Assembly: GCF_018143015.1 (NCBI RefSeq)
Contig: NC_054740.1
Coordinates: 68,612,356 to 68,676,355 of the forward strand
Origin: Lytechinus variegatus
Taxonomy: Eukaryota; Echinodermata; Echinoidea; Temnopleuroida; Toxopneustidae
Direction: 5' to 3'
DNA: 64,000 nt
The notes under the pieces are model-generated. The model saw only the letters and a list, made by a program, of their open reading frames with translations, did not search any database and was not told where the DNA came from. Below are positions 1-54,708 of the stretch, in pieces. Position 1 is the first letter of the stretch. Every line of letters begins with the position of its first letter. Both the position numbers and the translations under genes were made by a program.

Positions 1-34
1 CATCCTGGCATTGAAGGGGGCCACCGCTGTCACC
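1..34 (-). CDS. Protease exon 11 (partial): active-site serine
   Basis: After the acceptor TTACTACCAG the minus strand reads [11 protein letters not shown], the trypsin active-site serine motif. It starts in phase 0, matching the phase-0 end of the exon at 1072-1214, which stops at D-S-C-S just before this motif. The exon runs off the window. Confidence 0.88.
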
Positions 35-3000
35 CTGGTAGTAAAAAGAAAAATAAGGAAACAAGTTTTTTGTTGTCAAATCATGATATTTATTAAGGTC
101 ATTCTAACAATGTCACCATTCCTTAAAATCTGTACCTTCGGATCGCTTACTCAGTTTTCGATATCCTTAAATGGTTATTTGAAGATAGCGGAGTATAATC
201 GCAAATGTAGACAAAGAACGACAATACTCTAGGCCCTAAGTGGAATATATCTTTATATGATTATGTGTTGATATGGAACATGACCACGATGAATAACAAA
301 AAACAACTTTTTGTTGGAATTGAATAAATTGCCTCGGGGAAAAAAAACATTTTTCTCTTTCAGGAGTATGACCAAATTCATACCTTTTCATCGTACAAAC
401 TTAATTTAAATTAAAGAGTATACAAGTAAGTTTAATAACATGTCTTCCTGTTAAATGTAAATCTTTTGAGAAAAAGGGGATGGGGATAGAGAGAGGAGAA
501 AGGAAATCATAATTGTTGTGTTTCGAAGCTCATGACATAGCAAGAAACATAATCAGTATACTACCAGGTACTTAATGAAATTTATCTGAACTTATTTGGC
601 CTTGCAGTGCTTTTTCCAGTGTTGTGGGTCTCAAGGCCGGCCTCGAGACCGCAAAATCGACCTCGGCCTCCAGGACACGACTTAATCCTCGGCCTCGGAC
701 GCAATTCTCTGGTCAAGGTCGGTCGATGCCTGGTCGAGGCCGGGAGGTCGAGGCCGTAACGGAGACTCGACTTTGCAACGCACGTGTGCATGCATATACT
801 GTTCGTATCGCTCTGGCCTCGACCATTCCAGCCTTGGCCTTGTCCTTGGCTTGGGCAATCCCGCCTTGGCCTTGTCCTCGGGTAATCCGGCCTTGGCCTC
901 GGACACAACACTGGCCTTTGGCACATTCCGTTCTACAACCCTCATGATGGCAGGAACTGAAAATGCAGTTTAGATTTAGAGAATGTAAATCACATCTCAA
1001 CTTTATCACTTTTAAGTGACATCACTTTAAACCTGTGTTATTTTAAAGAAGTCAAATTAAATGCCCCTTACCGAACAAGAGTCCCTACGACCGTTTTCTT
1101 CTCCTGCACATATATGTTGATTAGTAATGGCGTGGATATCAGTGTACCACTGGCTACAAATACTCCTGTTAAACATCTGAATATTGGCGTCCATTAGATA
1201 TCTCATTGATGCTTCTGAAAGATAATCAATTGTAGATATGAACAATTATAGTAGACATAATCATCTTTCAAAGTCGATTGGATCAGGATATTGGTAAGGA
1301 CTGAAAATAAAATGTGGAAGAAATGGAAATTAGCAGGTGCACACAGTTATGAATCACCAAAAAAAAAATCCGATGAGTTAGTTTGCTTTTATTTTCTTGT
1401 GTTTGACTCGGTAGGATCTCTGCCTCGAGAAATGCAGCCATAAATCGCTATTGCAATGAGTATCAAGGTTCTTTTTCACACATTAAGACTTGAATGAAAG
1501 TTTAGCCAGTGAACCGCTTGAAACTTACGAACATCGATGTCATCAGTGCCCCATCCGCTGACGAAGCAGTTATTGAATGACGTCATTTCCGTCGTCAACG
1601 TATTGATGCAGAGAGGTTGGACGTAATCGTTGAACTCCACGGGTTCCGTAAGGCGGACTAGGGCAATGTCACCGTCATCGTTTACGGGGTTGAAGTCTGG
1701 ATTTGAAAAATGTTGGATGTTTCGCTCAACCCGGTATGGCGAGGTGTCTGTGGTGCCAGCGAGATCATTGTCCCCAAGAACGATGTTATCAAAGAATCCT
1801 CTGTTTTCGAATGAACATAATAGACAAATGTCACTTATGGAAGGAATCATGATTTCAAATTTATACGTTATAGCAATCCGCTATGGAATAACTTCCTAAA
1901 TCTAAATGCGTCTTCGATCCAAACCTCAGTTCGAACTTGGAACATTTTTCGCCGATTTGTTTCACTGAATTCAACGAAAGGCTACTCCTCGACTTTAGAA
2001 GCTCCTAGTGAGATTTGGGGTAATCTCATTTTAACCGTTTTCCAATTGCATTTTAGACAGTAATTAGTTCAGAGTTATCTAATGTAAATTTATTTTATTA
2101 ATCCTATTATACCGAAAGATTTACCCTTGTGCCATGATTGGCATCAGGATTTTGAATCATTTTGCCAACTGCCGCAGTAACATTTCCAACAGAGACCAAC
2201 TTCCAGTAGGCTGCTCTAATTATTATCAGAGTGATTCTTCCTGCTGTTGTCTCTAGATGGATGTTGCAAAAAATTATTTGAAATAAACTGGAAATTTCAA
2301 ATGCTGCTTTACAATTGATATACCAGCTGTAGCAATATCATTTTTCGCTTCTTGCTCCAAGAAGCATATCAGCAATCAAGAATAAATTTGCAATTAATAA
2401 TCATTTGCAGACCGAATAAATCGACTTGCAATTGATTGCAAGTGTCTTGCAACACCCCATAACCTATTGTAGATGCATGTCTTGGATTTTACTAGGTAGG
2501 TGTTTTTACAAGGTATATAATTATAAATGTCGTGGTACTTACACACAATGAGCAGCCGTAATGGCCCATTCTTGATGTATCAAGACGGCGCCACACTGGT
2601 GTGATCTTCCGCTCCGAAGCGAACCCATCCACGGCCACTTCCCGTTTGGTGCTAGAGTCCCACCAACGATTCGGGCTGTACCACCGGTAGTGCTATCATT
2701 CAGTGCTGATGGAGCACCACACGTATCTATCGATTGAGAGAGGGATAAACGTGGTTGATGACCAAAAACAAGAAAGGTTAACGAAACAACCAACGAGGAT
2801 GTTACCCATGACTGGTAAGCTGATTTCTTTTCGAAAAGACCACCCATGTCCCTCCATCTGTCTTTATTTGGTACCCAAGCCACATCCCACCCATGTCTTT
2901 GTTTCGACTTGGCACCATCAGTTACATTATTAGACAATCAAATACGTAAACTGTGTAGATTGTCCATTAAAAACACTTTACTAGTCAGGTCCAGATTTTC

Positions 3001-6000
3001 AAAGTGTGCTCAGAAAAAGTTCTTGAGGCATTTTGTGTTAATGTTGATTTATCAATAGTTTTGAGGTAATTCAGGGGTGCTGAATCCAAAAATGTTGTTT
3101 GCCAAACTTCATTCCGACGTTTTCATCAAAAAATCGGTAAAAAAAATGGCGATATCTAGAATGCGGTTTCCCCTATTAAATCATTTCTATGGGTGATTAT
3201 GTTCCAGAAATTATGGTCTATGCTATATTTTTTATATCCAGGGATGCAGACCTCAAACTTCCGATTGATTCGTCAGCCATCTTTAATTCCGAGATGGCTG
3301 CCATGATTCACGGTTGTTGATTAATGAATGAAATGGACAAATATTTGATATTTTGAGGGGGAAGTTGGCAAAACCATATTGTGATAACTTCAAATTGTTC
3401 GCCGTTTTTTCCTCACCAGCATAACAGACGGCAGCAATCACTTTGGCGGCGGCAAAGTCAACATAAAATCTTATCGAATGTTAAGTTTTTGAATTGTCAA
3501 AACTCCTTCTTAATAGGTATCTATTTGATGAAACTATGGGTTAAACAAAATCTATTGAGACAGGTTATAGTATGAAGAAAATGTCATCCGGGATACCTGG
3601 AAATCCAAGATGGCGTCCAGAACAGTATTCGTAGTACTATCAACCCCAAAATTTAAAGTAAATCATCTATTGCTTACTCTAGCGTCAAAAAATTAGACAA
3701 AAATCTGTTTACAAGATTGACAGTGAGTGTGCCAGAGAATCCAATGACCTTTTAAAATGGCGTCTATAATGGCGTCAACAAAAAAGAACATCATGGTTCA
3801 AAGGGAAAAATGTACATTGAAAAACTGTCAAGGTTTGTCAGTGGTGCCGATTGTCAAAAAAATCACGATGGGTTAAAAAAAATGGTTGCTGTTTCTTAAA
3901 AATTTGATGCAACGTGCATAAATAAAATGTGTAGCAGTGACATTTTTGTGTCTTTCCCTAGCATGATTTCAAGGGTCAAATTATAAAGTTTGTGACTAAT
4001 TACAAGGATATGCTGCTGTCCATTTTATCAAAACATTGAAGGCTCGCAAATTTGCATTCAAGTTGGCCCCCATTGATACAAAAATGGCACAACTTCATTA
4101 TTATCCCATGTATAGACATTATTTTGGTGTATCTGTTATTTTTAAGGCTCATAAAACAAGTGTTACAAGTTACAAAATTAGACCATGGTGCAACAATACG
4201 TAAAAACCGACCGAAAAACATAATTGGGTACACTTTCACCTAAAAAGTACTATAACTCACTGATAAATAATTCAAGACAAGACACTTAAGTGCTGCTGAC
4301 TGTCCTAAGGTTTCATGAGTCAGGAACAGCAGTCACTTTTACGTAATTTTAGAAGTCATTACTGATTTTTTAGACATAAAATTAAACTGACTATTCTTGT
4401 TACTTGCGCAGATGGCGCGTTTCCGTTTTACACCCTGGCGAAGGCATTTTCCGGAAAAGTAGCCAAAAAGCGACTAGTGAAGAGTCTACACACGTCGCTG
4501 GTTGCATGCAGCGTGCGACACAGGCGAGTCCACCACCGCATGCAATTTGCACAGTTACTGATCAGAGCACAGAGTTCCTCGGCACTTCATGTACAGAGAG
4601 AGCGGCAGTCAGGAGTCAAATCCGAACATGCTTTTGCAGTCGCGTTGTTTATGATAGTTTTTTTTCTAAAAATAAATTATTAACTAAATGAATAGAATGA
4701 CAGACAAAATAAAATAAAACCCAGATACTTATAATGGAAAGACAAATAGAAGTTTGATGGATTGATACACTTAGAAGCTGCCGAAAGATAGATATAGAAG
4801 ACTGATAAATAGACAGAGACAAGATATACAGATATACAGTGCGTATCAAAAAAAAGTTTACACTTTGAAAAAATCCTGTAAAATTATGCGTTAGTAATTT
4901 CTCGAAGATTTTGCCACAGTTTAACATTGGTACAGGTCCATTAAAGCAAATAACGATATAACTGTCGAAAAATATTTCTGCTTGAGTGAGCACCACTTAA
5001 TTTTGAATAGTGAAAAATGATTTGCGCAGAACATTGAAATAGTAATGCGAATAAAAGTAGACCGTAATCATGAAGAACACATGGAATTTAGCTAGTAAAA
5101 TTAATTTGAAGATATCTTCTACCTTGTTAGACTTGTTTCCTTGCCCAAAACACTTCGAAGAGTGCATTTCACCCCACCCCACTACCCCATACACCGAGCC
5201 CATCGTGACGATATTTGCTTTACACTGAGGTGTGATTTACATGGAATGGCTTAAGCTTGATTTCCATTATGTTTATCATTGGTAAACTCGAGAATAGTTT
5301 GGAGAAACAAGTATTAAATGAAAAATGAAATGTAATCCCACTTTCAATTATAAAAACTTAGTGAAAAAATGCTGGAGATGTCTGATATAAACTTTTCTTC
5401 AGATTCAGTTATGTCCTCAGATCCAGCTGGCGCAAATAGGGTAAAGGTTGTGCTTAATAAGAGTTGAAATTTCACTATGAGTGGCAAACTTGTTACAAAA
5501 TGCTGGAATGTATCCGTTTTATTTCAAATGACTTAAAGTGCAAGGGAAATGTATGATAAATCTTTTGTAGGGTAAGTTTGATTTCGTCCTTTCCCCTTGA
5601 CACAGCATGAAAACGAGCATTTCTGCGCGAACAGATTTCTGCGAGCTTTACAGAAATGGACAGTGCTCACTAAAGAGTAACATTCTGACAAAATTTTTAC
5701 TTTCATTGGATAGATGAGACCAAAACCTAAGATTATATGTGCAAAAATTACCCACATGTTGTATGCTTTTAAATTCCCCAGACTTTTTCACACTGTAAAC
5801 TTTTTTTTGATACGCACTGTATAGATAGATAGATAGATAGAAATAGAGAGAGAGGAAGAGAGAGAGAGGTGGATAGATAGATAGAAAGAGAGAGAAAGCG
5901 GGAGAGATGGATGGATAGAAAGATAAATAGAGAGAGAGGGGGAGAGACAGAGAGGTCGATATATAGAGGGAGCGAGAGGGGGAGAGAGAGAAAGAGAGAG

Positions 6001-9000
6001 AGAAGGATAGATAGATAGAGAGAGGGAGAGATGTTGTAGATAAAAATATGGACGGACAAAGAGAAAGCGAGAAAAAAAGACAGACAGAATGATGCTAGAG
6101 AATTAAGGAGATAGATAGATAGATAGAAAGATAAAGAATGAGAGAGACAGAGAAGGTAGACAAATTAACAGATAGATATATAGATATAGAGAAAGACAGA
6201 CAGATGGATAGATAGATGAGAGATAGAGAGAGATATTTTATAATTAAAGAATGAGAGAGACAGAGAAGATTATTAACAGATAGATCGATACTCTAGTTAA
6301 AAAATAGATAGAGAGAAATAGAGAAAGACAGACAGATGGATGGATAGATAGAGATAGAGAATTTGAGATAGATAGATGTTAGATAAAGAATGAGAGAGAC
6401 AGAGAAGATTATTAGATAGATAGATACTGCAGTTATAGAGATAGAATTTGAGAGATAGATATATAGACAGATAGAGAGAAAGACAGACATCAGCAAATCG
6501 GCAAGGCAAATGATCAAGGCAGACATTCGTATTGAACCTGGAGAGTATAAGCTCAGTTGCATTTGCAAGTACGGTATGTTCTGTTCGGTGCGGACTTTGG
6601 ATCGCGCGCCCAGCTGATTCTTCACTAGTCGCTTTTTGGCTACTTTTCCGGAAAATGCCTTCGCCAGGGTGTAAAACGGAAACGCGCGTCCAGATGTATT
6701 ATTTGATCCTTCGAACCACAATAGCGTAGACATCAAATATTTTTTCATATTACTATGTGATGGGACTCATTGAGTCGCAATTTGGAAGCCATTTTGAGGT
6801 TTTAGGCAAAATGGACTACTTCATACCATTGAAACTGATACAAGATTATTATTTAACCCTTTAAATCATAATGTAGACGTAAAAAATCATATCAACTAGG
6901 TGGATTATAAATGAACTATGTCAAATTTGAAGTAAAAGCAGTCATCTTTGACTCCTCCTCTTGGAATTCTGGACATACAGGACCATTGATTGTCCTTGTA
7001 ACTTATTCTCATGTAATACTTGACCCTTTAAATCAAGGGTTAGACAACATCATCATATATCCCAGGTGGATATTGAACAAACTATGTCAGATTTTTGTTA
7101 ACAACAACCATTTTAGACTCCATTTTGGAAGCCATCTTGGATTTTTGAACATGGTGAAACACTGAATATCCTTGTAGCTTGTCTTAATGTATTACTTAAC
7201 CCTTTAAACCATGGGTTAAAGACCAAAATCATATACCCCAGGCGGATATTAAACAAACTATGTCATTTTTGGCTAAAAACAATTATTGTAAACTCCAATT
7301 TTGGAAGCCATCTTTATTTTGTTTTGACATACTGGAACCACTAAGTGTCATTGTAACTAATCCCAATGTAATATTCGACCCTTTGAACCATGGGTTATAC
7401 ACGATAATCATATTCTCCAGGCGGTTATTGAACAAACTGTGTCGGTTTGTAATTGATGACAGACATTTTAAACTCCATTTTTGCAAACCAACTTGGATTT
7501 TTGGACATACAGGACCAATGACTGTGTCCTTGTAACTTTTCCTGACGTATTACTTGACCCTTTAAACCATTGATTAGACACCAAAATCATATTTCCCAGC
7601 CGGATATTAAACAAATTATGTCTGTTTTTAGGGGTTTTAGATAACAACTGCAATTTAAGACTCAAATTTTGACAGCTATCTTGGATTTTTTACATATATT
7701 GGATCGCTGACTGCCCTTGTTACCTACCCCAAATTACTTCTTGGGCTTTAATACAACCATTGAATAAAACCAGAATTAAAGACACCAAAATAGGAAATAG
7801 ATGAATTGTGAATATTTAGGCTATGGGGCCATTTTACACGCCATCTTGAATTTCGAAGTAACCTGGAGTGTTAGTGTTCACTCTACCTGTATCAGTAGAC
7901 ATTTTACCCCTTATACCATTGAATAAGCATCGGAAAGGGATGCCTAGGTTGAAAAAAGAGTTTGGTTATGTTACTTTTCAGTGAATGGCGGTCATCTTAG
8001 ATGCCATCCTGAAAATACCACTTTCCCGGATGCGGATTCTGGTAGATTTTTAATATGTTATTCCTGACATCAAATAGTACCAGAAAAAGTTGACAAACAT
8101 TTTTGTTGCAGGTTTTGGGGGGTTAAAGAGAGAAAAAATGCTTCAAAATGGCAGCCATATTGTTTTGCAATTTTGAGGATTTTAACATAAACTTCAACGT
8201 TGGCAAACAGCATATTTGGACTCAGCGCCTTCATATTATGTTAAAACACTTCTTAATTCAGCATTAACACGATTTGCCCACGGCAGCCTACTTTTCTCAA
8301 ATCCGGACTTGACTATACAAGTTTAGGCTATTCATCCGATGAAAAAGAAGAATCCTCTTATTTTAAATCACCATCACTTTATGATATGCATCATTAAGAC
8401 AATGACCCTCGCCTATTTCGGATGGAAACTTAAACCATCACCCGCTGTTTCTTAGTCGTTCCCAGGCCCCTGATTTAGACCCATCACCATCACCCATCAC
8501 AAAGGGGATCTGAAAGTCAAATGAAATTCAAAGATACCTGGTAAAGCCGGATGAATCTTTGGTTGTCTTGTAACATTCGCTTCCATTCCTGAGGTTGTCG
8601 ATGACGATGACCTCGTGTTTGTATTTGAGGATGTGGAGCCGTCTGCGGTCGTTTGTGTGGCGGGATCGGTTGACCGTTGGGAAGCTGTTGTCAGAGTAGT
8701 AAGTGAACTGTTAGTAGGAGATACAGTAGCTGTTGTAGCTTCTGTTGTTAACATTGATGATACTGTCCTAGTGATTGAAGGGCTGGTAGTGTCTGATGAT
8801 ACCGGAAGTGAAGTCAACGTTGACGTACCATTAAAAGTACGTGTTGAATGGTCTGCTTCCGTTGAAGATGTTGTAGATTGAATCACAGGTGATGTAATGG
8901 TAGCATCGACTGTGGACGGTGGAATGCTTAAGTTGTTTACGGTCGTGGGTGATACTGAAGTCAGATTTGCTAAATTGGTACCTACAGTCTGTGAATCAGT

Positions 9001-12000
9001 TGGAAATGATTGAGCTGTCCGATGATCCGTGCCGGTTGTGTCATCAATCATTGTTGATGCTGTGGCTGCTACCTCGCTTGTTGAGGGAGGTGGGGATGAA
9101 GTGATCGATTGGGGAGACATTGTAATTACTTTGGTAGTTGGAAATGCTGGTGCTTGTGAGGAAAAACCTCGAGTTGTGATCGGTATAGTTGTTGGTGCTA
9201 CTGTTCCTACAGATGTTATGGGTGTTGAGAACAATGTACTTAATGACGATATGACCTGACTAGTTACAGAATGAATTGCAGTTGTTTCTGGCGTCGATTC
9301 GACGAAGGCCGTTATCGGAGGCCTGACAGTCGTCTGACTTTGTTGATTTACTGGGGAGAAATTAGATGATTGTTACCGTATGAATAATAATAATAATAAT
9401 CTTTATAATAATAATATATATATCTATTTACGCAGGGAAGCCACGTACTTTAGTTCTGAAAACTGTTCTCCCAGCGGGCCCTGCTATTATTAGAATGATT
9501 CATTTGATAGTAACAAATACATAACACTGATGATGTTAATAATGATAAAAATGATGATAATAATAATAAGAATGATAATAATAGAAACAATGTTTCTTTC
9601 TTATATAAGCATATTATGTACCGTTTAACATCTCTTGCTACTTCCAAAGTACTTAAAAATTACCCCAGCTTTATCCCGGCAAGCCTTTTTTTACAAGCGC
9701 ACAAGCATTCAATTATGGATTTGATTCCTGCCAATTTCCCATTTACCTCATCTGGGGCGAGTAGAGGACAACGTGAATCAAATTCTTGCTGAGGGAAATT
9801 ATGCCTATAGATGGGATTCGAACCATTGACCTTTATTTCAAAGTCATGAGAACCACTGGGTCACAACGTTCCACAAATTAATTCCAGGCAATTCCAATAT
9901 AATTTGGCTTGCTTTTGGTTTCCCCATTGTCGTTTAATGAAAGACACGTAACATGATTTAATACTATGAAAGATCTGAGATATAGACATTGGCTTACCAG
10001 ATGTAAATTCTAGGGAGTCTTCTAAAATTTCAAAAGCGTCGAAGAAGCCAGAAGAAATGCCATTGCCGACTGTGACCTGCACGTCGACAATGACTTCCAT
10101 TTCCGAGACAGCATCATTCGGTGCCGAGGAAAGAAAAACTGTGAAAATTATTCGTATGCTTCCTTGTCTGATTGGTGAAAAAATAAAACAAACAGTTAAG
10201 AGTTTCTCAGCGTGGAACACATTATATTACGACTGGATAACCATGGTACAAAAGAAAATATTCACGTTCGGATAAAGTTAGGAGTTACGTAAATCGATTA
10301 GGTCAGGCGTACATGACCTTTAAAATACCAGAAAGGAACTCGATGACTGTTTACAACCTTCATCCCAGTGGTACATTCCAAAATTAATATTATCATAGAC
10401 ATTATGGTTCACAAACATAATTAGAATGAATGAAGGTGTGCAACTTTTTCTTGTTTTCAAACAAAAAGGATTAATATTCTTAGGTTGCTCTGGTTTCTGA
10501 GTCCGATGTGTTAACATTGGTGAATTTCCTATTCTCATCCATACCTTGAGGTTCTATGAGTGACACTAGTTAGGTTTTTAAAAATGCCGCAAAGTTATCT
10601 ACATCATCTATTTATTTTTTAATCCCCACGCAGTGACTATGAATGGATTATATATAAGGCTTTACAGATGTATCTCTACATGAATAATCATGGAATAGCA
10701 AACTTACTCGAAGCGCTCAACTCTCGTCCTGTCATAAATGTCTGCTAGGGAACTATTTCCAAACGATCCACTCATCTGTAAAAGAGACACAGTATTATCC
10801 ATATTAATTCATGTTGATAACATGATTGTATTTCATAGCCGTGATATTTTAAGGCAATTTCTTTGTCTATCGTAATCTTTTTCCTTCATTTTTCAAATTT
10901 TAAGTGTTTCTTGCATGCATGGTCTGCTATATCATCAAAGAGATACAGATATGTTAATATTTGGGACACAGATTCATGCAGATGCTGGAGCAGGGGCTCA
11001 TCTCACAGCTTCCGTTTAACGTTTGTACCACAGGCTTCAATGTCAGAGACACTGAATATATTCTTTAAATATATTCGGGAATTAAGAAGTTTATTACTTT
11101 ATTGATGCACAATCAATTCATCCCTCCCTATTATTGTACACGGCGAAAATAGTTGATTACATAGAAGGACACACCACTCCGGTGTTAAATTTTTGGAGTT
11201 TATATAGTTCAACACGTATGGCTCTTATACAACAGACTTGCTTTACACCTTTACACTCTTTGGTGTTATGTTCAATATCTAGGAGGTAATCTGAACACCA
11301 AATGGTGTGGTCTTTTAGGGACACCAACTAGTGTCAGTTTTAATACACTGCAAAAATATTAGTGTTAATTTCAACACCGGCCCAGTAACTACATCGGGAA
11401 ATCAAGCAAAGTGGAATGAAACATGATGTTTCAACACTAACCGGTGTTATTTAAATGCCTATCTGGTGTAAGCCCAAAGCCAAACTTGTGCTGTTTCAAG
11501 ACCTCTCTGGTATTTTCTTTGACAGGCACCGGGCTGGTGTTAAATTAACTCTGGCGTTTTGGCAGTACACCCCAGGTTTTTCAGTGTGGACATCAATTCT
11601 GGAATGGACTACCGAGCCCGGATAACGCCGTGATTTTTCATTATCACGCTGCTTGCTGATCAAAAATAAATCTTTTCCAGAATCGCCTCTCAACTTTAAT
11701 TGGGAATCTTTGGCTCGTAACTTACCGCACTAGTAAATTCATTTTCCATTTCTCTGTAAGCCGTTGATTCTGGATCGGCCAAATCTGGATGATAAGTCTC
11801 GTTCAAGAGTAAGGATCCTTCTACTGTCAACGGACCTGTGCATAAGTTTAACGGAACACACATGAAAAAAGATTAGATGTATTGAATTGTTGGCCACCTG
11901 TCCGAGGCCCTGCAGAGGCCATCGGTTGTTTATTTTGTCAAAAAGTTGTATGATATCGATATATAAAAACTCTTGAAACTGATCATCGAGTCAGCATTAT

Positions 12001-15000
12001 AGGCCTAGTGTTAGATTGGTCTGTTAGAGCAACTACGGCAGTCTAGATACCAAGACAATGCACCAAGTGCATAAGTATCAAATGATTTTTCTAATCATTT
12101 TGGCTAATCAGTTTGGAAAAAAAGTAAGCAATTGGTTGAAAGATTAACTTTTGATATATCTCAGCCACATATTCATACGATTCCTGTTAGTTTTCTACGC
12201 ACCACCTTGAGCGTTGTTTTTTTTTAAATCAAAAGCAGCTAGTGCCACAGGCGAATAAAAAGATGACAGTGAGAAATATATTTCCTTTAAGCATACATGG
12301 CATAAGAATCTATACATATGCTCATAGATTTTGCTCAATTTGCATGCGTGAGCAGGGGAGAGTTTATGAAAGGACCTGTCAAAAAATTTTATCCGATAGT
12401 TGCCATAGGAATTGTGCTTCTTAGCCAATCTAAATCAAGGAATGTTGTCAGGTCTGAGTCAGATCATCTGACAACTTGGCGCCCCAGTAAATGCTAATGC
12501 AAATGCTCTTCGGATTTCAGTTGCGATTGCTTATGGTTGCACACGTGGCTGAAGCATGTATTCGTCTGCTTAATTGTCACCAATACCAAACAATTTTTTG
12601 GGAGCTCTTCTGTTCAGGAATATATATTTTGTTTTCAAATCACTGTTCTAGTATTTTTTCTGATATTTTACTGTTTTACAGGATTCATTTTTTTTCTCAA
12701 GTTTAATGCGTCTTTCATATATATACAATTAGAAATATGGGTTCAAATTTGAGCCAAGGGGGTTGGTAAAAGAGCATCTTTAAGGATGCAGACAGGTACA
12801 CTGAGCACCCTAAAGTTTACAGAGAAGAGCTATTTACCTCTTAACGTAAAATATCATGCACCCTAAAAAGTGCAAAGTTGTATCTATCGGGTGCAAACGA
12901 GCATTTCTGAGTGCAAAAATAGTCAGATGGTATTTTGTTAGTCTTTTTTAAATTAAGATGCAAGGTTGATGAGGTTGACTAGTGTTTCATTAAAAGTGCA
13001 AACCTAAAACTCAAAATTCATAGCAAACTCAAGTTCAAAACACCTAACTTGAAAAGTTATAAGGAAATATTTTTTAAGCAATTGCTTTATTCCAGACAAT
13101 TACCTATTGCTTGTAAGAAAATTGCTTGTAAGCATATGTTTTTTTTTTTCTTTCAGTTTAACAAATTTATGTAACGCTTACCTGTGAGGGTCCGGCTGTC
13201 ACTATCAACGAATACTGTACAAAGAGATGAGGTAAGAAACAAAAGCGGTCAATACCCTACAGAGTGCTGCTAGCTAGAAACTTTAGCTAGCGACAAGCTG
13301 GTGACTCACATAATGTTCGATTGTAGGCTAGCAAACAATTCATGTTCTCTATAAAAGATTCCTTATTTCTCTGTATGCCTACACTCTAAAAAACAGTCTC
13401 CCCAATATTGGGAAAAATGGGAATACATGTAAGCTTGGTGGGTAAAATGATACCAAATACTTTGTAAATTTTACGCAATGTTGCGTTGAAATTTACCCTT
13501 TAAACTTGCATTTTGTCCATGGGGGAAAATTACACAGTAAGCACGCTTGTCCCCTTTCTAATATTGGGTAAATTTTAATCATTTTATTAGAGAGTATGAC
13601 AAGCTTGTCAAGCTTTCCACAAGTTTTAGCTACAATCTTTAGTTAGACCGCTTGCTTGAAATTTCTGTGAAGGTTCTGGGTGCATAGAGATTGATATTTT
13701 ATCAGTTTAATAGCTGCATCAACTATGTAAAGTCTGCAGAACAATAAATGATCATAAACCTGACAAGTGCAAATATTTAATGAACCATTCTTATCCTAAG
13801 GCCATAGATCACAAGAGAAGAAAATAATTCCTGTATTAGGCTAACACGATTACTGTCAACATACAAAGAATGCAAAGAGGAAATTGAAATTGCAAATTCC
13901 CACAAAGGCATAATGCATATGGGGGAAAGGCGCTTTTAACCTTAATCTTCTTTAACTTGTTTCTAAAGAAGAGTTGGTTATCCAGAGGAATTATGTCTTT
14001 TTTCTGGATAAAAAGTCGAATGCTTGCAGAAGGGGACACATTGTGAATTCATATTTCTTTGTTAAACATGGTACAAAGTCTTTTTCTTTTGCATATTAAG
14101 CAAGTAAACAAAGGCTTCAGTTCAGAGATCGCGACTTGGCTCAAAGAATGAAGTATCACATGCCTAAAGGAGTTTTACACACAAGTCATGTGTAAGGGAG
14201 ATCATCAGCACTTAAATTGTCTTTCTTTTCTTAGTCTTCCTTTTTTCTATTTTCCTAAACTTATCTCCCTCTTCTCTGTCGTTGTTGCAGACCACTTCCT
14301 CTTCTCTTACTTATTCTTATTAAAATTTTGTTGATTTTTTTTCTCTATCTCTTCTTACAGACCCCCTCTCCATCTCTCTTTCTTTCTTGCTTTCATCCTC
14401 CATACCTGGATAATCATTATATATGAAGGGGAAGTTCACCCTCGATGACAAAGAATTTGTTGTAAAAACAGCAGAAAAAATATTAGCAAATATCGCCGAA
14501 GGTTTGAGAAAAATCCACCGAAGTATAAAAAAGTTATGAGAAGTTTAATAATTTGATTTGTGACTTAATATGCGAGCAGCTTTCCTGCTAAATAATCAAT
14601 GAAATGTCATTTTCTCAGAAAATTGAAAATGGTTTTTATTGTATATCAATAGACAAATCTTTTCACAGCCGTTCCTAAAAAGAAAACAAAATTAAGTCAT
14701 CAGAGACCATTAAAATGAATGGTATGCTTCTTATAACTTATGGGGCAGCTGCTCGTTTATGACGTCACAAATCCAAATTTCATTCATCTTTAATGAATTT
14801 TCCTCAAACCTTCATGAATACGTTTTACCTGTTTTTCAGCTTTTTTTTTACAACAAAGCTTTCTTTCAGAGTGAACTTCCCCTATTATACATTAATAGCA
14901 TCATGATGTCACACCGATGAAACGTTATTTCCATTGACATAACATGAAAATGAAAATCCATTATTTATTGTTCGAAATAGACATGAAATGAAATACTCCG

Positions 15001-16455
15001 AAAATTTGCTTTGCCCAATTGATCGTGGGCCCGGCAGCCACCGTGCAGCACCACATCGACGAGGCTTTATTCCTTTAATTGTTGAACGCCAAAGCAGCAA
15101 CTCCCATCTTTTAACGTCTTTTGGTCTGACGCGGCCGGGGTTTGAACCCCCAACCTCCCGGTTGTGAGACGGACGCTCTACCAACTGAGCCAACACACCG
15201 GTTACCAACTGAGCCAACACATCGGTGCCTTTGGAGTCGGTGTCGTTGGTGTGACTGTCTCTCATGCTCACTACAAGAGTCACGTGATCGCTTACCTGTG
15301 TTAATCAGAATAAAGTAGAGAAGAATCCCCACACAGGTCATCATGGCCAGCACGACAAAGACGACGAAGCATCCCATGAAACAATTCCGCAGTGGCTTCC
15401 CGCCGTCGACATCATCGTCCACTCCGAAGTCGATGCTTGCGGCTTTGGTAGGTAACCCCCTCGGGTTGGCCACGGGCCCATCGTCCTCGACACTCGACAA
15501 CGACTCCGACCTCTCTTTGATGGTTTCCTCATGCTTTCCTTTTTGAATAGTCTCGCCAAGCACGAAGGCTTCGTTGAAGTTGTAGCTTCCAGAAGTTCGC
15601 TTCCACTGAGTAAAAAAGTAAAAGTAAAACAGAGTAAAAAAAGAGTCTATTATCTTATTCACTTTTTTAATTGAGATTAATCCTAAATGAGAAACCCATT
15701 TATCCTTTTCAGATTTTATGAACGTATTATTTACATACATATATATATATTACTCATTAATTTGTATAATGAAACATATCTACATGCAATATTGGTGATA
15801 TAATACGCTTCTTCACACTGATGCTGTACTGTAGAAGAAGTTGAGCCGGAGGTAGAAATTGTAGATGTGTAAGGGACGAAATTCCAAACATTCTTTGACA
15901 TTTCATATTTTGTCATATAAAAACTAAGCGTTCATAGGATTAAAGAGGGTATTGATACAAAACAGCAAGATTTTTACTTTTCAAGTGCTTTCTATATTTT
16001 GAAATGAATTTCTCTATCTTTCCCAACCTCTTTTTATGATAACCTCTTAATTTGTCGGAGTAAAATAGTAACTTGGCTCATCATTCGTACATATAGCACA
16101 ATCGAGATCTTGTTTGTACCACATTGAAATATTAGGCGATGTCCTGGGCATTATTAAATGATCTTGTCTGAGTAAAGACTTCCTAGCTAAGGAAATATAC
16201 ACGGAGGCTTAACATGCTATACAACTATTATAAATATGCCTATAATATTCAAACTTATGCTTATAATACTCTAAACTAATATATTGAGGTTTATAATTGA
16301 TATATCAGGAGAACAAAGTTCTTCTGAGATATGTAAAAGTATAAGATTGTAAACTTTAAAGATTTTGATTTTATCGTGTTTAAAATCAAGATTATACTTA
16401 ACAACTAATTACAGATACATACGATTCTAGTCATTTAATTTGTACTTACATTCAT
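1..16455 (-). CDS. Type II transmembrane serine protease: TM, SEA, mucin stalk, trypsin domain (gene span; 3' end off window)
   Basis: Predicted cell-surface trypsin-like protease, N-terminus inside. Joining eleven exons gives 714 residues before the window edge. Order: cytoplasmic tail (1-76), hydrophobic helix (about 77-103), SEA domain (about 117-232) with the G178-S179 autocleavage-type site, Ser/Thr-rich mucin stalk (234-503), then a trypsin domain from about 505. Activation site is R522-IVGG; the triad is H563 (AAHC), D609 (DIAL) and S706 (GDSGGP). D700, six residues before the serine, predicts cleavage after Arg/Lys. C506 and C629 are placed to tether the pro-region to the catalytic domain, as in matriptase/HAT-type proteases. 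Every exon junction has matching phase and canonical GT/AG ends. The tiny first exon is the least certain piece. Exons between 2727 and 8537 could have been missed; none was seen. Family assignment is firm, orthology is not claimed. Confidence 0.85.
617..914. repeat. GC-rich foldback repeat of GGCCTCGG/CCTTGGCC units
   Basis: A block far richer in G+C than its surroundings, made of many irregular GGCCTCG and CCTTGGCC copies. It is bounded by an inverted pair: CCAGTGTTGTG near 617 and CACAACACTGG near 905. It lies in the intron between protease exons 10 and 11. The apparent ORFs on both strands are products of the repeat. Confidence 0.55.
1072..1214 (-). CDS. Protease exon 10: region before the active-site serine
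   Basis: Encodes 47 residues including NRSIC, HICAG and GRRDSC. These are the conserved trypsin segment holding two cysteines and the specificity-pocket aspartate. Acceptor TTATCTTTCAG, donor GTAAGG; starts with two bases completing a Gln codon and ends in phase 0. Confidence 0.88.
1529..1800 (-). CDS. Protease exon 9: catalytic aspartate
   Basis: Encodes about 90 residues with DIALVRL (catalytic Asp), VQPLC (cysteine linked to the pro-region in this family) and CFVSGWG. Acceptor CGAAAACAG, donor GTAAGT. One base at the start completes a Val codon and one base is left at the end. Confidence 0.92.
2543..2726 (-). CDS. Protease exon 8: activation site and catalytic histidine
   Basis: Starts after a pyrimidine-rich acceptor ending in AATCGATAG and reads TCGAPS, then ARIVGG (zymogen cleavage), CGAVLI and WAITAAHC (catalytic His). 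The donor is GTAAGT. Its two leading bases complete the Asp codon begun by the mucin exon at 8538-9350. An open frame continues upstream to 2937 with a hydrophobic stretch, but the splice site and phase favour that being intron. Confidence 0.88.
3075..4240 (-). repeat. Diverged repeat block, inverted relative to 6780-8260
   Basis: Holds repeated phrases such as AAGATGGCG and the complement of GACCCTTTAAA. The start (GCTGAATCCAAAAATG... TTGCCAA) resembles the reverse complement of bases around 8195-8235. Heavily diverged; boundaries approximate. Confidence 0.45.
4837..5819. mobile_element. Tc1/mariner-like MITE, 983 bp
   Basis: Begins CAGTGCGTATCAAAAAAAAG and ends with its reverse complement; about 26 bases of each end match before the arms diverge. 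It is flanked by TA on both sides, the target duplication of this superfamily. No transposase is encoded. It sits inside the GATA-rich interior of the foldback element, so it is the younger insertion. Confidence 0.8.
5821..6490. repeat. GATA / GAGA / GACAGA microsatellite tract
   Basis: About 670 bases of GATA, GAGA and GACAGA units interrupted by short unique words such as AAAGAATGAGAGAGAC that recur three times. Related sequence lies left of the MITE (about 4690-4836). Minus-strand frames here give only Ser/Leu/Ile low-complexity peptides. Confidence 0.9.
6780..7730 (+). repeat. Tandem repeat of about 177 bp, five recognisable copies
   Basis: The phrase (G/A)ACCCTTTAAAC/T recurs at about 6855, 7022, 7198, 7377 and 7556, spacings 167, 176, 179 and 179. 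Each unit also carries TTTTGGAAGCCATCTTGG, CCTTGTAACT and AACAAACTATGTC. Copies are diverged. More decayed related sequence continues to about 8260. Confidence 0.75.
8538..9350 (-). CDS. Protease exon 7: mucin-like Ser/Thr stalk
   Basis: A single 813-base exon encoding about 270 residues dominated by Ser, Thr, Pro and Val (for example [15 protein letters not shown]), with several N-x-S/T sites. It should form a heavily O-glycosylated stalk between SEA and protease domains. Acceptor TTCTCCCCAG, donor GTATCT. Phase 1 on both sides, so the exon could be gained, lost or expanded without breaking frame. The long plus-strand frames over it are shadows of the low-complexity code. Confidence 0.88.
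9383..9868 (-). mobile_element. tRNA-derived SINE, split by about 170 bp of other DNA
   Basis: The right part holds a box-B-like GGATTCGAACC (plus-strand strand sense; tRNA head on the minus strand). The left part has GAAAACTGTTCTCCCAGCGG and a TAATAATAAT tail. The uninterrupted copy at 31063-31285 shows the two parts are normally contiguous; here about 9484-9653 is inserted between them. Confidence 0.6.
9998..10167 (-). CDS. Protease exon 6: C-terminal half of SEA domain
   Basis: Reads [10 protein letters not shown], then a helix-like segment and [15 protein letters not shown], the second half of a SEA domain. The G-S step matches the site where SEA domains self-cleave (consensus G-S-V/I). 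Acceptor ACCAATCAG, donor GTAAGC; one base at each end is shared with neighbouring codons. Confidence 0.88.
10708..10775 (-). CDS. Protease exon 5: central SEA segment
   Basis: Short 68-base exon reading [19 protein letters not shown] then ERF, between acceptor TCTTTTACAG and donor GTAAGT. It starts in phase 0 and leaves two bases. The pattern (small residues, L..IY, V..F before G-S) is typical of SEA domains, and a homologous exon of the same phase lies at 22028-22101. Confidence 0.85.
11139..11587. repeat. Palindrome-rich MITE-like element (ACACC..GGTGT)
   Basis: Within about 450 bases ACACC and GGTGT recur many times in inverted pairs (ACCGGTGTTA, ACACCAAATGGTGT, ACACCAACTAGTGT). It resembles small palindromic transposon derivatives. 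It lies in a protease intron; ends approximate. Confidence 0.5.
11726..11835 (-). CDS. Protease exon 4: N-terminal half of SEA domain
   Basis: Encodes 36 residues beginning [14 protein letters not shown] and ending ENEFTSA. Acceptor CTTATGCACAG, donor GTAAGT; two leading bases complete a Gly codon and it ends in phase 0. It aligns with the exon at 23795-23907 of the neighbouring SEA gene. Confidence 0.85.
13182..13214 (-). CDS. Protease exon 3: 33-base linker microexon
   Basis: Reads [10 protein letters not shown] between acceptor CTCTTTGTACAG and donor GTAAGC, joining the membrane helix to the SEA domain. Phase 1 on both sides, so skipping it would keep frame. Support is the paired splice sites and exact phase fit; it is too short for homology alone. 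Confidence 0.75.
13379..13597. repeat. Possible small MITE
   Basis: Starts ACACTCTAAAAAAC and ends near TTTTATTAGAGAGT, a weak inverted pair. The interior repeats AATATTGGG(A/T)AAA near both ends. No clear target duplication was identified. Confidence 0.35.
14427..14883. mobile_element. Palindromic MITE (AGGGGAAGTTCACCCT ends)
   Basis: Begins AGGGGAAGTTCACCCT and ends AGAGTGAACTTCCCCT. The interior is roughly self-complementary, with GAGCAGCTTTCC on the left against GGGCAGCTGCTCG on the right. A partial copy of the same family lies at about 30800-31066. It sits in the intron between protease exons 2 and 3. Confidence 0.7.
14980..15232 (-). mobile_element. tRNA-Val-like SINE beside the protease exon 2 donor
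   Basis: The minus strand reads GGCTCAGTTGGTAGAGC (box A), a CAC anticodon loop and GGGTTCAAACCCC (box B), followed by a non-tRNA body. The acceptor stem does not pair, so it is a SINE and not a tRNA gene. The box-A end is tandemly duplicated (about 24 bp). Confidence 0.75.
15296..15605 (-). CDS. Protease exon 2: cytoplasmic tail and membrane helix
   Basis: Encodes 103 residues: a charged tail with Ser/Thr clusters and an acidic patch ([11 protein letters not shown]), a basic residue near the membrane, then the hydrophobic run [19 protein letters not shown]. Acceptor TTTTTTACTCAG, donor GTAAGC; starts in phase 0 and leaves one base. The open frame runs past the donor into a tRNA-derived SINE. 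Confidence 0.88.
16450..16455 (-). CDS. Protease exon 1: candidate start codon exon
   Basis: ATG AAT followed directly by the donor GTAAGTACA. It ends in phase 0 as the next exon requires, giving a protein that begins MNWKRTSG. A TTTTACAG just upstream could make this an 8-base microexon, or the upstream bases may simply be 5' UTR. No competing ATG exon was found nearby, but a transcript is needed. Confidence 0.5.
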
Positions 16456-41921: not shown

Positions 41922-42065
41922 TTAATCACTATCGCTGCTATGGTCAATTTCTCCCTTTCGTTTCTTTAGCCTATGAATTGCTTCTTCGTGTCTGCGGATC
42001 TCTCTCTCGTGTGCCTCGATTTCCTCGTCATGATGTTTCTTTAGTGCTTTGAGCTGTTCCGCTTG
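41922..42065 (-). CDS. ATP5IF1: IF1 exon 4: coiled coil and C-terminus
   Basis: Starts after acceptor TTTTTATGCAG and reads QAEQLKALKKHHDEE through KKRKGEIDHSSDSD-stop, the dimerising helix. Phase 0 start. Confidence 0.96.
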   Translation of the reverse strand, partial: QAEQLKALKKHHDEEIEAHEREIRRHEEAIHRLKKRKGEIDHSSDSD

Positions 42066-45000
42066 CTGCATAAAAAGAAAACAAACACGAACAAAAAATG
42101 AAGGAATTACATTACACTTGCAGACTGTATTTTTTGTTACTGTAACTCCTGGGGGGGGGGGGCCACTTCCATTCACGAGTGGATACCATGCGCGACCATT
42201 GGGTCTCGAAAAGCACCCTAAACACGTAATTTCCATATTCTGAAAATGCGCCCCTTACCAAGTATTGGCGTGTGAAACCCTACCCTAAACAAGTATTGGA
42301 AACAAAACTATACTCTTGGCAAATATTCCCTGAAATGAACCCCGAAACAAGTACAGGAATGTTTTATTGTTACGGGTCCTAATTCGGTCGTCGGCTATAC
42401 CTTTTTTGGTTTAGTACAACCCCACCTTCTACAACTCGCGCAAATCGGACTCTAAACACGAAGTGCTGGGGCAAAAATGACATCCTTTATGAAACATTTT
42501 AATTTTGCTTTATTATCCCCGCAAATTCGACCCTAAACACGTAATCTTCCTAGCGAAATAGATACCCTTTTTTCATTATTTTTGTGTTTTTGACACCCTT
42601 ATCATGTTACGTACGTAACGTGCCCTATCGTGAAAAAGACATCCTTTTTACGTGTTTTTTTGGTCGCGCATAGTATCCACTCGTCAATGTAAGTGGCCCC
42701 CCCCCCCCAGGCTGTAACTACAGCTTTAAAAGTAGAACTTATTACAAGGTGGTATGAATCCTAAGAATAAAAGGACTAGCTGAAATTTATTATTCATTGA
42801 ATGTCCAGACATTTATTTTTGCTGACTGGTACTATTGACTGGTTAAATTGATTGGTCTTTGCTAGTGATAAGGATGGCTTATCAAATAACAAGAATCAAC
42901 ACAAATATTTTATAAAACATATAATACGCATCATTCTACTTGGGTATAACTATTACCCACATTTGCTACGTTTGAAACAGTGCAAACACACTTGGCTATA
43001 CATTAAGTATGTTAGGATTGTTCTAAAAGAAACTGTATAAAGTCTTACTACTATGCTCTCGATACTGTGTATCGTTTGTAAACTTTTTACTCAATCTAAA
43101 TTCTTTGGGGGTGCTTTGAAGCATAATGTATGCATTGCAGGCATTTTTTTAAATTTATTTTTATTTTCGGGGCTACCATTCACAGCTTAATGCCTAAATC
43201 TGCAACATTGGAAAAGCTTTAACATTGCAATGAATGGGGATTTCCATGGCTCCTTTTGATCATGGGGGGGGGGGGGTAATTTGCCCCAAGCCCATGTTAT
43301 TTCCCCCCCCCCTAATACATTGTATATAAATCATACCATTAATTAAATAGTCACTTTTCTATTACCCTCTTTCAAACTACAACAAGTATCTACGGTACTT
43401 CCTTTCATAAATATCTCATAAACTTCTTTTTCTATAAAATGGTTGCACTGTCATGTTGCACCAATGTAAATGTATTTGAAAAGAAAGATATGACAGGGAG
43501 GGTGGATTGAATATGATACAACTTTGATTTTTTATCTAGGTTTGAAATATGCAGAGTAAACTGTAATTTATATGGTTCAATCACATTTCATTATTGTAAG
43601 AGTAACTGCATTGTAGAAATTTAAGAATTGATCACCATAATAGGCGGTGCTGATTTTCACCTAATTGCTAAGAAAGCATAAATGCTTGTAAGCAAGCAAG
43701 CAAGCAAGCAACCAACCAACCAGACGAGCAAAGGCCTAAGATCCTCTCTGAGAGACCTGGTAAATTGAGGATGCTTTACCAAAGGGCACTAGCGTACCAA
43801 GTGGGAATCGAGCCAAGGTCAATGGAATCAAGAACGCCTCCTTCTACTCACCAATTGCCTGAAATACTGTTCCTCGTGTGCAGCTTCCATTTTACCAAAG
43901 GCACCTCCAGCATCACGGATAGATCCTCCAGTTCCACCACCCTAGCAACCAAAAGAAACAATGATAGTAAATACAACATCAATCAATGACATTGATATCA
44001 ATGTCTGAATCAATACAATTAGGTATGCCAACCCCTTAAAAAAGAATAAGAGTATTTTAATAGATTTTTAGAGGATTTAGAAAATTAGGTGCAAAAAGGT
44101 ATTTTCATCTTTTTACATAAGGCAAATTGTGTACTATTAAAAGACTGAGAATATATTTTTTTTATAAAACCTGCAGAATTAAAAAAATATAAATTGAAGA
44201 CTGGTGGCATATCAAATGTCAAGACTAAAACAAAATTACCTAACAAACATCCCTTACTATCAACTTGGAAACCAAGAAAATTGACACATGCACATCCTAC
44301 TTTGAAGGCTGAATAGCAACATCTTTATATTAATGAGACTTGACATAGTTACTTACACTTCCGGATCCAGATCCGTATTCACCTGCCATTCTGACTTGAC
44401 TGAAATAGAAAATAAAATAGACAGCATGTTTGGTATCAATTTGTAAATAATATATCAAACCAGTTCTCAATTCTTAAAATCAGTTTACTAGATAACAATG
44501 TAATGATACATTCTTGGATGATATTACATCATAAGTAGCTAGTATTGTTGGTAGTGACTTTGAAAATACAGTTGAAATTCATGGAAAAACAAACTGGTAA
44601 ATTTTCTTACATCATACAGCATTAAATTGTGTTCACATCAACTTCTTTCAATTATTTGTCATTTCAATACTAAACCATGTGACTTTAAGCTGATAATTCA
44701 AAGTTATATTTGCGATCTGCTTTCAGCTAAATTTGATTGAAGTCAACGCCATATATCATTTGACTTTGAAATTCTTAAGAAATAGCTATAATGCCCCAAA
44801 GTAGCATATATAACAGACAAGAGCCATGCAGCACATTTCAATTTCAGGCCAAAGCGGAATAGCCAGACCTAATAATTAATCTTTATTTTGGTTCAGTTCT
44901 TTTTATATATTTTTATGAAATAAAGACCAAAATCAATAAGCCCAGTCTGGAGGATTTTGCATTGTTAACCCCCTAATGGCGGCTGCACGATCGTGAGCTG

Positions 45001-53184: not shown

Positions 53185-54708
53185 TCATGCAGCCACCTCT
53201 CCTTCTCTGGCCTCAGGGTCTGCGGCATTGTCAGCATCCTTCTGAGGCACAGATTGTTCATTGTCTCTGGATTCTGAGGGATCATTAGGCTGCTCATCCT
53301 TGCTTTCAAGTGGAGTGTTCCTGTCAACAGGTGACTGGGATGGTTCAGTATCACCTATAGGAGAGGCAGGCTTGTTAGCTTCCGATGCTGGTTCAGGGCC
53401 TGTAGGGGCACCTTCCGCAGCTGATGCTGGAGGGTTGGGGCTTGCGGTGGCACCTTCCGCAGCATTGTCCTCTGGAGGAGCAGAAGCACCTTGTGGCCTG
53501 GATTCAGAGTCTTTGTTAGGAGATTGGGCTGATTCAATATTGTCAGGGAGTGTGGGGTCACTCTGGGGTGCAGGTGAGTGGGGACTTGGTATTGGTTGAT
53601 CAGCAAGTTGATCATCCCCACTTTCAGATGGAACGTCCTTACTGGCAGGTCTTGGGCTAACATTTTGAGTGGGTGATTGGGCTTGGGCATTGCTCGCTGC
53701 AGGAGAAGGTGGCAAATCTTGCTTCGAGGGTGGAGGTTGAGGAGTTGATGGACCTTCTACATTCTGACCACCCCCACTGACCGGTCTTGGACTAGCATTC
53801 TGAACAGGTGATTGGGTTTGTCTGTTTTCAACAGGTGGCGAAGATGGTGCATTCTGCTCCAAAGTGGTTTCTACATTTTGACCATCCACACTGCTCGGTC
53901 TAGAGGTTTCACCCTGAATAGGTGACCTTGTTTGTCCATTTTCAACAGCTGGAGATGATGGTACATTCTGCTCTGACTCTACAGGTTTGGGAGTTTCAGT
54001 GGCTTCTACATTTTGTTTATCTTCGATGGGAGGTTGACCATCCCCAGTGACCGGTTGCAGGTTATTGTTCTCAACGGGTGACTGCGAGTCTCCATTGTCT
54101 ACAACTGGAGAGGCTGGAGCTTGCTGAGGATGAGGCGTGAGTGAGGATTCTACATTTTGACCATTTCCACTAACTGGCCTTGGGCTATTGTTTTCAACTG
54201 GTGACTGAACCTTTCCACTTTGCACAGCGGGGGAGGGTGACGCTTGGGGACTTGGAGCCGAACCTACCACCTCCCCACTCTGACTCTGAGGCCTGCTTTC
54301 TACATCGTTGCTCACAATCTCCTTAGGAGTTACACTTCTTCTGTGGCTCCCTGCAGGAGAAGGCGGCATGCTTCGTTTGGATGCTGGTGGGTGAGGGCTC
54401 ATTCTCGACTGACCCTCCCTGCTATGTAATGAACTCTTCCGACTCGATGTCCTTTCATTGTTCACAATAGGAGTATCGACTCTTCCATTGGACTTGGCGG
54501 GGGATGCAGGGGGTAAACTCTCTTGTTTAAGAGAAGGGGCAGGGCTCTCTCTTGGTTGATCTTGTGGTAATTCCCTGCTCTCTGCATTGTTGCTATTGTT
54601 CTCATTGGGTGATTGTGCTCCTTTGTTGCTGGAGGGACGGGACACTGGTAGGTCATCATCGGCTCCATTCATGATAGGGGATATCTTGCCACCGATTTGG
54701 TCTTCATT
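53185..54708 (-). CDS. Repeat-rich protein, terminal exon
   Basis: Acceptor TTCTATTTTGTAG; reads NEDQIGGKISPIMNGADDD and stays open for 507 residues to the stop. Internal repeats span about 53620-54215. The ATG at 54672 could be misread as a gene start, but the frame runs on to a good acceptor whose phase fits the exon at 59492-59751. Confidence 0.88.
   Translation of the reverse strand, partial: NEDQIGGKISPIMNGADDDLPVSRPSSNKGAQSPNENNSNNAESRELPQDQPRESPAPSLKQESLPPASPAKSNGRVDTPIVNNERTSSRKSSLHSREGQSRMSPHPPASKRSMPPSPAGSHRRSVTPKEIVSNDVESRPQSQSGEVVGSAPSPQASPSPAVQSGKVQSPVENNSPRPVSGNGQNVESSLTPHPQQAPASPVVDNGDSQSPVENNNLQPVTGDGQPPIEDKQNVEATETPKPVESEQNVPSSPAVENGQTRSPIQGETSRPSSVDGQNVETTLEQNAPSSPPVENRQTQSPVQNASPRPVSGGGQNVEGPSTPQPPPSKQDLPPSPAASNAQAQSPTQNVSPRPASKDVPSESGDDQLADQPIPSPHSPAPQSDPTLPDNIESAQSPNKDSESRPQGASAPPEDNAAEGATASPNPPASAAEGAPTGPEPASEANKPASPIGDTEPSQSPVDRNTPLESKDEQPNDPSESRDNEQSVPQKDADNAADPEAREGEVAA

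Follow-up and report, generated by a model that had tools for sequence, protein, structure and literature searches.

Gene structure and encoded protein

Do a SEA domain, a Ser/Thr-rich segment and a trypsin domain that follow each other on one strand over 16.5 kb of DNA of the sea urchin Lytechinus variegatus belong to a single membrane protease? These segments lie at the beginning of the window, the whole stretch of 64,000 nucleotides that was analysed (C1:68612356-68676355, free of N; genome of 869.6 Mb in 33 contigs). A previous reading of the sequence alone had joined them into eleven exons with exact phases, encoding a membrane segment, a SEA domain, a mucin-like stalk and a trypsin domain in this order. 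All eleven exons were recovered on the minus strand at the coordinates proposed there, with GT-AG borders and matching phases throughout, and the proposal of one gene with this order gained further support from the 3' end of the gene, from homologous intron positions and from a second gene of this genome. We consider it likely that the 16.5-kb stretch and 140 bases beyond it together make up a single gene, whose product would be a type II transmembrane serine protease (TTSP) of 760 residues with a SEA domain and a mucin-like stalk.

The exons, all on the minus strand, can be described from the N terminus onwards. Exon 1 (16450..16455), separated from exon 2 by 844 bases, fits by its GT donor and its phase and is the least certain of all. 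Exon 2 (15296..15605; residues 3-106) encodes the cytosolic tail and the membrane segment, a hydrophobic 21-mer starting at residue 83 with a mean Kyte-Doolittle value of 2.9, and ends in phase 1; in the second gene the membrane exon has the same end phase. Exon 3 (13182..13214), a short linker of 33 bases with phase 1-1, was placed by GT-AG borders and phase alone. The SEA domain, recognized by Pfam, is distributed over exon 4 (11726..11835, first part, 110 bases, phase 1-0), exon 5 (10708..10775, middle, 68 bases, phase 0-2) and exon 6 (9998..10167, end, 170 bases, phase 2-1), the last of which carries G178-S179 at the self-cleavage position. Exon 7 (8538..9350; residues 233-503) is the Ser/Thr-rich, mucin-like stalk, and the sequence-only reading had described it correctly as one 813-base phase 1-1 exon of about 270 residues between SEA and trypsin. 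It is followed by intron 7 (2727..8537), with 5811 bases the longest of the ten introns, which the critical join from 8538 to 2726 has to span. The trypsin domain, likewise assigned by Pfam, begins in exon 8 (2543..2726, 184 bases, phase 1-2) with a stem cysteine, the activation site R522-IVGG and the catalytic His563, and continues in exon 9 (1529..1800, 272 bases, phase 2-1) with the catalytic Asp609 and in exon 10 (1072..1214, 143 bases, phase 1-0) with the specificity residue Asp700. The window ends within exon 11 (1..34), which holds the catalytic Ser706. When the next 10 kb beyond the window edge were included, the remainder of this exon ran for 140 bases to a stop codon and an AATAAA was present from 302 bases out. 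The completed protein of 760 residues consists of cytosolic tail, membrane segment, SEA domain, Ser/Thr-rich stalk and a complete trypsin domain.

On the joined partial protein, Pfam gave SEA at 1.5e-10 (residues 126-198), trypsin at 2.3e-42 and one further sub-threshold match inside the trypsin part; on the completed domain the trypsin value was 1.2e-53. For the tail-SEA part, an NCBIfam search yielded no match and a PDB sequence search two non-significant ones (E 0.18 and 0.98). The SEA domain carries FEQG-SIRI where matriptase and MUC1 are cut, that is Gly-Ser at the cleavage position with hydrophobic residues next to it, the motif described for self-cleaving SEA domains in a passage of PMC6954182. 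GSI was likewise present in each of the four further SEA exons that the genome yielded; in the second gene the motif reads GSV. Judged by this motif and by matriptase, self-cleavage of the domain between Gly178 and Ser179 is probable.

In the protease domain the full set of functional residues is in place: the triad, the specificity Asp and the activation Arg before IVGG. The Arg/Lys specificity proposed earlier agrees with the Asp at the position of residue 189 and with Gly at those of 216 and 226, all read by eye. Of the 13 cysteines of the protein, three are situated in the membrane segment or close to it; the other ten belong to the protease exons and would fit five S1 disulfides. One of these would be the tether Cys506-Cys629, presumably paired in this way, in which Cys506 precedes the activation site. 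Among the best 60 of 538 PDB sequence matches, the protease domain was closest to enteropeptidase (5.2e-35), then to TMPRSS13 and plasma kallikrein, and TMPRSS11E and TMPRSS11D scored below these three.

A second gene with SEA, Ser/Thr-rich and trypsin exons

Searched against the genome, the tail-SEA part of the protein returned four exons of its own gene, C1:87530868 (E 2.35) and one place on C17 (E 7.6). A trypsin gene that had been found independently (C1:87550973) follows the first of these outside matches on the same strand, at a distance of 20 kb. In the reverse direction, the SEA sequence of this second gene returned four exons of that gene, and its sole outside match overlapped exon 4 of the window gene (E 0.22). 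Taken singly, these E-values are weak; the argument is carried by the reciprocal finding together with exon lengths and phases. The SEA exons measure 110, 71 and 191 bases in the second gene and 110, 68 and 170 bases in the window gene, and in both the phases are 1-0, 0-2 and 2-1; in the second gene, the membrane exon closes with a phase-1 donor. Compared with each other as a single pair, the two SEA domains showed 33% identity over 61 residues (E 2e-10). Pfam assigned the second one at 7.6e-10, a score that is partly selected since the middle exon of 71 bases was picked by eye from 23 candidates.

The second gene is a large, TTSP-like gene on the plus strand at C1:87528705-87551100 (loci L045, L042, L044, L037 and L031), 19 Mb from the window gene. 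In the stretch inspected, C1:87521400-87550990, a membrane exon, the SEA exons, Ser/Thr-rich exons, LDLa, CUB and Fz-like modules and a trypsin domain follow in a row on one strand. The Ser/Thr-rich part comprises three exons of 129, 171 and 198 bases with 62-68% Ser/Thr/Pro, each of phase 1-1, which probably arose by duplication, as their starts are near-identical. Pfam assigned six of the ten open frames beyond them to LDLa, two to CUB and one to Fz, the latter just under the curated cut-off, and gave nothing for the tenth; the trypsin exons come next. The two genes thus share the membrane exon, the SEA phases, the Ser/Thr-rich phase 1-1 exons and the trypsin domain, whereas the second gene has three short Ser/Thr-rich exons in place of one long exon and adds LDLa, CUB and Fz-like modules ahead of the protease. 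As far as its predicted exons go, it mixes matriptase-like and corin-like stems, Fz modules being a feature of the latter.

A third related gene on the plus strand at C1:88158010-88177900 (C1:88.17 Mb; L046 and L036) has, by eye, CUB, LDLa and Fz-like exons and an apparent signal peptide start. At C1:76544364-76684243 many similar trypsin-domain exons form a tandem cluster, mostly on one strand (L013, L014, L017-L019, L021-L028 and others).

The join between stalk and protease

The one-gene assignment depends on the join from 8538 to 2726, and several observations weigh against it. The chief evidence of this kind is the weakness of the splice sites: donor 8538 scored 3.5 and acceptor 2726 scored -0.3, each the lowest of the ten in the gene, with matrices built from the nine other sites of the gene itself, a very small sample. 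Intronic sites that scored as well as the critical ones made up 7% of 326 GT and 36% of 244 AG. Four of the 37 GT sites within the stalk frame outscored 8538, and two of these, 8829 and 9261, are in phase and would shorten the stalk; of the 18 AG sites in the interval 2937-2560, 2826 and 2705 outscored 2726. The LDLa, CUB and Fz-like modules that stand between stalk and trypsin in the second gene did not appear in the search of the window gene. Upstream of the third related gene no convincing SEA match was found (best E 0.25), so that SEA and Ser/Thr-rich exons were present in one of the two close trypsin relatives checked upstream. The N terminus is a separate weak point of the gene model; it is uncertain because exon 1 consists of ATG-AAT (Met-Asn) only.

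The low scores of the join raise the question of whether two genes are present. The first would encode a type II membrane protein with SEA and mucin parts, terminated by an in-frame stop that closely follows 8538; the second, a trypsin gene of its own, would have its start inside the 5.8-kb interval, for instance at ATG 2847. An ATTAAA at 8054 could terminate the first transcript, and a reading frame that starts at 2847 with a hydrophobic, signal-like N terminus continues into exon 8 without a stop. This hydrophobic stretch is, however, equalled by 42 of 237 other ATG frames in the window, and the start of exon 8 itself has counterparts elsewhere. With the trypsin query, 85 matches at the level of exons were obtained from the genome, including three that belong to the window. 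Among 18 related loci looked at by eye, all of the 16 that were readable (of the other two, L033 was truncated and L027 fell outside the locus) had an acceptor of phase 1 at the place that corresponds to the start of exon 8. The acceptor takes the form AG|AT in 15 of the 16 loci (L020 being ambiguous) and AG|GC in L035, and L012 matches the full GATAG|AT form of the window gene. Nine of the 16 belong to the tandem cluster at C1:76.5-76.7 Mb and are therefore not independent.

Since related loci share place and phase of this acceptor, the intron before exon 8 is likely to be an old one, and the open frame that extends back to ATG 2847 most likely passes through intron. A single-exon secreted trypsin from ATG 2847 was rejected as the main interpretation on the grounds of the shared acceptor and of the commonness of such hydrophobic stretches, and an independent trypsin start near 2937, which had been named beforehand as one outcome that would speak against the assembled gene, is disfavoured. 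The row of membrane, SEA, Ser/Thr-rich and trypsin exons in the second gene also argues against a division into two genes. The chance of finding a same-strand, in-phase trypsin exon within 5.8 kb came to 9.5e-5 with 85 matches and to 1.1e-3 with 1000 matches, a rough figure that assumes trypsin exons to be scattered at random. Altogether we regard two separate genes as unlikely and retain the reading of one continuous gene.

The mucin-like stalk

The stalk has 271 residues, among them 117 Ser/Thr, 24 Pro, ten Arg/Lys and no Cys, and thus the high Ser/Thr/Pro content of mucin-type sequences. Judged by this composition it is probably O-glycosylated and rod-like. No tandem repeats within exon 7 were listed in a repeat scan.

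It could be that the main product lacks the stalk or has a shorter one. As exon 7 is of phase 1-1, its skipping would preserve the frame and give a 489-residue SEA-trypsin protein of the HAT type, and use of the in-phase donor 8829 or 9261, both of which outscored 8538, would give a shorter one. The sequence of the exon points the other way. The stalk sits in an open run of 291 codons, whereas the longest stop-free run in 300 simulated strands of 16.5 kb, generated with an order-2 Markov model of introns 2-7 of the window gene, was 206 codons (mean 123). This excess over all simulations, together with the Ser/Thr-rich composition throughout, suggests that exon 7 is maintained by selection. The second gene, too, places Ser/Thr-rich exons after its SEA domain. 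A stalkless or short-stalked main product is, in our judgement, improbable, and the full-length stalk is kept in the gene model.

The sequence-only reading had called such a stalk unusual; in view of the Ser/Thr-rich exons of the second gene it is less unusual than was claimed. Such exons after SEA may accordingly be a trait of the SEA proteases of this genome, as judged from two genes. Because the Ser/Thr-rich stretches of the window protein yield no Pfam match, similar stalks may also sit unreported in other annotations.

Intron 7

A stem module overlooked in the 5.8-kb intron would change the order to SEA-mucin-X-trypsin. The LDLa, CUB and Fz-like modules found at this place in the second gene and the length of intron 7 would suit such a module. 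Eight LDLa, CUB and Fz queries taken from the related genes, however, matched the window at E 0.87 or worse, and two LDLa patterns gave no hit in it. Much of the intron is, moreover, occupied by inverted or tandem repeats: a pair of inverted repeats at 4415-4486 and 6616-6687 (99% complementary) encloses an inner pair at 4833-4886 and 5770-5823 (85% complementary), and a diverged tandem array of period 179 (3.8 copies, 74% matches) extends over 6959-7629. We therefore hold an overlooked module to be very improbable, though a small, atypical one may have gone unnoticed, and keep trypsin as the domain that directly follows the stalk. On account of the nested inverted repeats and the tandem array, the length of the intron is plausibly due to insertions. 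The region 4415-6687, with simple repeats between its nested inverted-repeat pairs, resembles non-autonomous DNA transposons.

Comparison with known proteases and membrane mucins

With its tail and signal anchor, a SEA domain in the stem, an S1 domain with triad and R-IVGG and a stem cysteine, the protein has, in its predicted topology, the sequence characteristics of a TTSP. It shares with the HAT/DESC (TMPRSS11) family the type II membrane segment, one SEA domain and the C-terminal S1 protease. A passage of PMC3154331 gives a single SEA domain as the stem of this family, a definition that the window protein does not satisfy, as its 271-residue mucin-like stalk stands between SEA and protease. 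With matriptase it has in common the type II layout, a SEA domain with a Gly-Ser cleavage position (part of PMC5567652) and an Arg-activated S1 domain. The matriptase stem continues with CUB and LDLa modules according to a section of PMC6331135. In this respect the window protein differs, neither module having been found in the window with the eight queries and two patterns. Enteropeptidase, the best PDB match of the protease domain in the search given above, has a SEA domain near the membrane and a long stem with LDLa, CUB, MAM and SRCR modules. Of all these stem modules the SEA domain alone was found in the window protein. The membrane mucins MUC1 and MUC16 share the membrane-proximal SEA domain, possibly with the same self-cut joint, and the distal mucin region. 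Their chain order is mucin-SEA-membrane, so that the window protein runs in the opposite direction and, in contrast to them, ends in a protease head.

The architecture appears to be an uncommon variant within a well-known protease family. Among the titles and abstract openings listed from the open-licence literature, none described a SEA-mucin-trypsin protein. We tentatively consider a further possibility, to which we give less than even weight, that the window gene and the second gene form a distinct SEA-mucin branch of membrane proteases, comparable to membrane mucins in reverse orientation with a trypsin head. If so, how far the protease reaches and when it is released would depend on the SEA joint and the glycan stalk instead of on a docked stem domain, and the phase 1-1 stalk exons would allow lengthening, duplication or skipping of the stalk.

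Proposed course of maturation and release

We infer every functional step (self-cleavage, O-glycosylation, activation and shedding) by analogy with related proteins. The N terminus would be anchored by the cytosolic tail and one membrane segment. As the motif and the example of matriptase suggest, the SEA domain would cut itself between Gly178 and Ser179 during folding, with the halves remaining together; for matriptase, cleavage at Gly149-Ser150 with halves that stay together is described in a passage of PMC5567652. The stalk, if O-glycosylated and rod-like as its composition indicates, would keep the trypsin domain off the membrane over about 270 residues. Following the rules of the family, the zymogen would become active through a cut after Arg522, made by a trypsin-like enzyme that may be the protease itself, and the catalytic chain would then stay tethered via Cys506-Cys629. 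TTSPs are presented in a part of PMC6331135 as single-chain zymogens that are activated between stem and protease and whose catalytic chain is held by a disulfide, and TMPRSS11D is described in an excerpt of PMC12065894 as self-activating and able to be shed. Release could occur by parting of the SEA halves or by a tryptic cut at one of the ten Arg/Lys of the stalk. Matriptase is shed only after an additional cleavage, which falls mainly at Arg186 between SEA and CUB and in which its own activity is probably involved (PMC5567652, in the same passage).

The distance between SEA and protease bears on the role of the stem. In TTSPs such as TMPRSS2, the stem domain lies behind the protease domain as a support, and the same has been proposed for the SEA domain of TMPRSS11D (PMC12065894, in the part consulted). 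With the protease some 270 glycosylated residues away from SEA, such support would hardly be possible, and the window protein would thus be a test case for the role of SEA: participation in activation, or anchorage and release only. Through its symmetric stalk exon, the gene could give rise to short- and long-stalk forms in a simple way, by evolution or by splicing.

Other features of the window and of the genome

Three closely similar SEA exons with GSI (L001, L002 and L003) were located at C14:13.8-14.1 Mb, and none of the motifs AAHC, IVGG and GDSGGP was found within 3 kb around each of them. In the remainder of the window, Pfam searches on five other open frames returned sub-threshold matches at most. 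A Ser/Pro-rich open frame of 507 codons, without a Pfam match, lies on the minus strand at 53188-54708. Another on the same strand (41928-42254) showed a sub-threshold match to the mitochondrial ATPase inhibitor IATP (7.6e-4; 20.3 bits against a cut-off of 25). A tRNA scan of the window gave no tRNA gene; on the minus strand in intron 2, the segment 15130-15226 looks tRNA-like by eye, similar to tRNA-derived short repeats, and is associated with a 24-base direct repeat.

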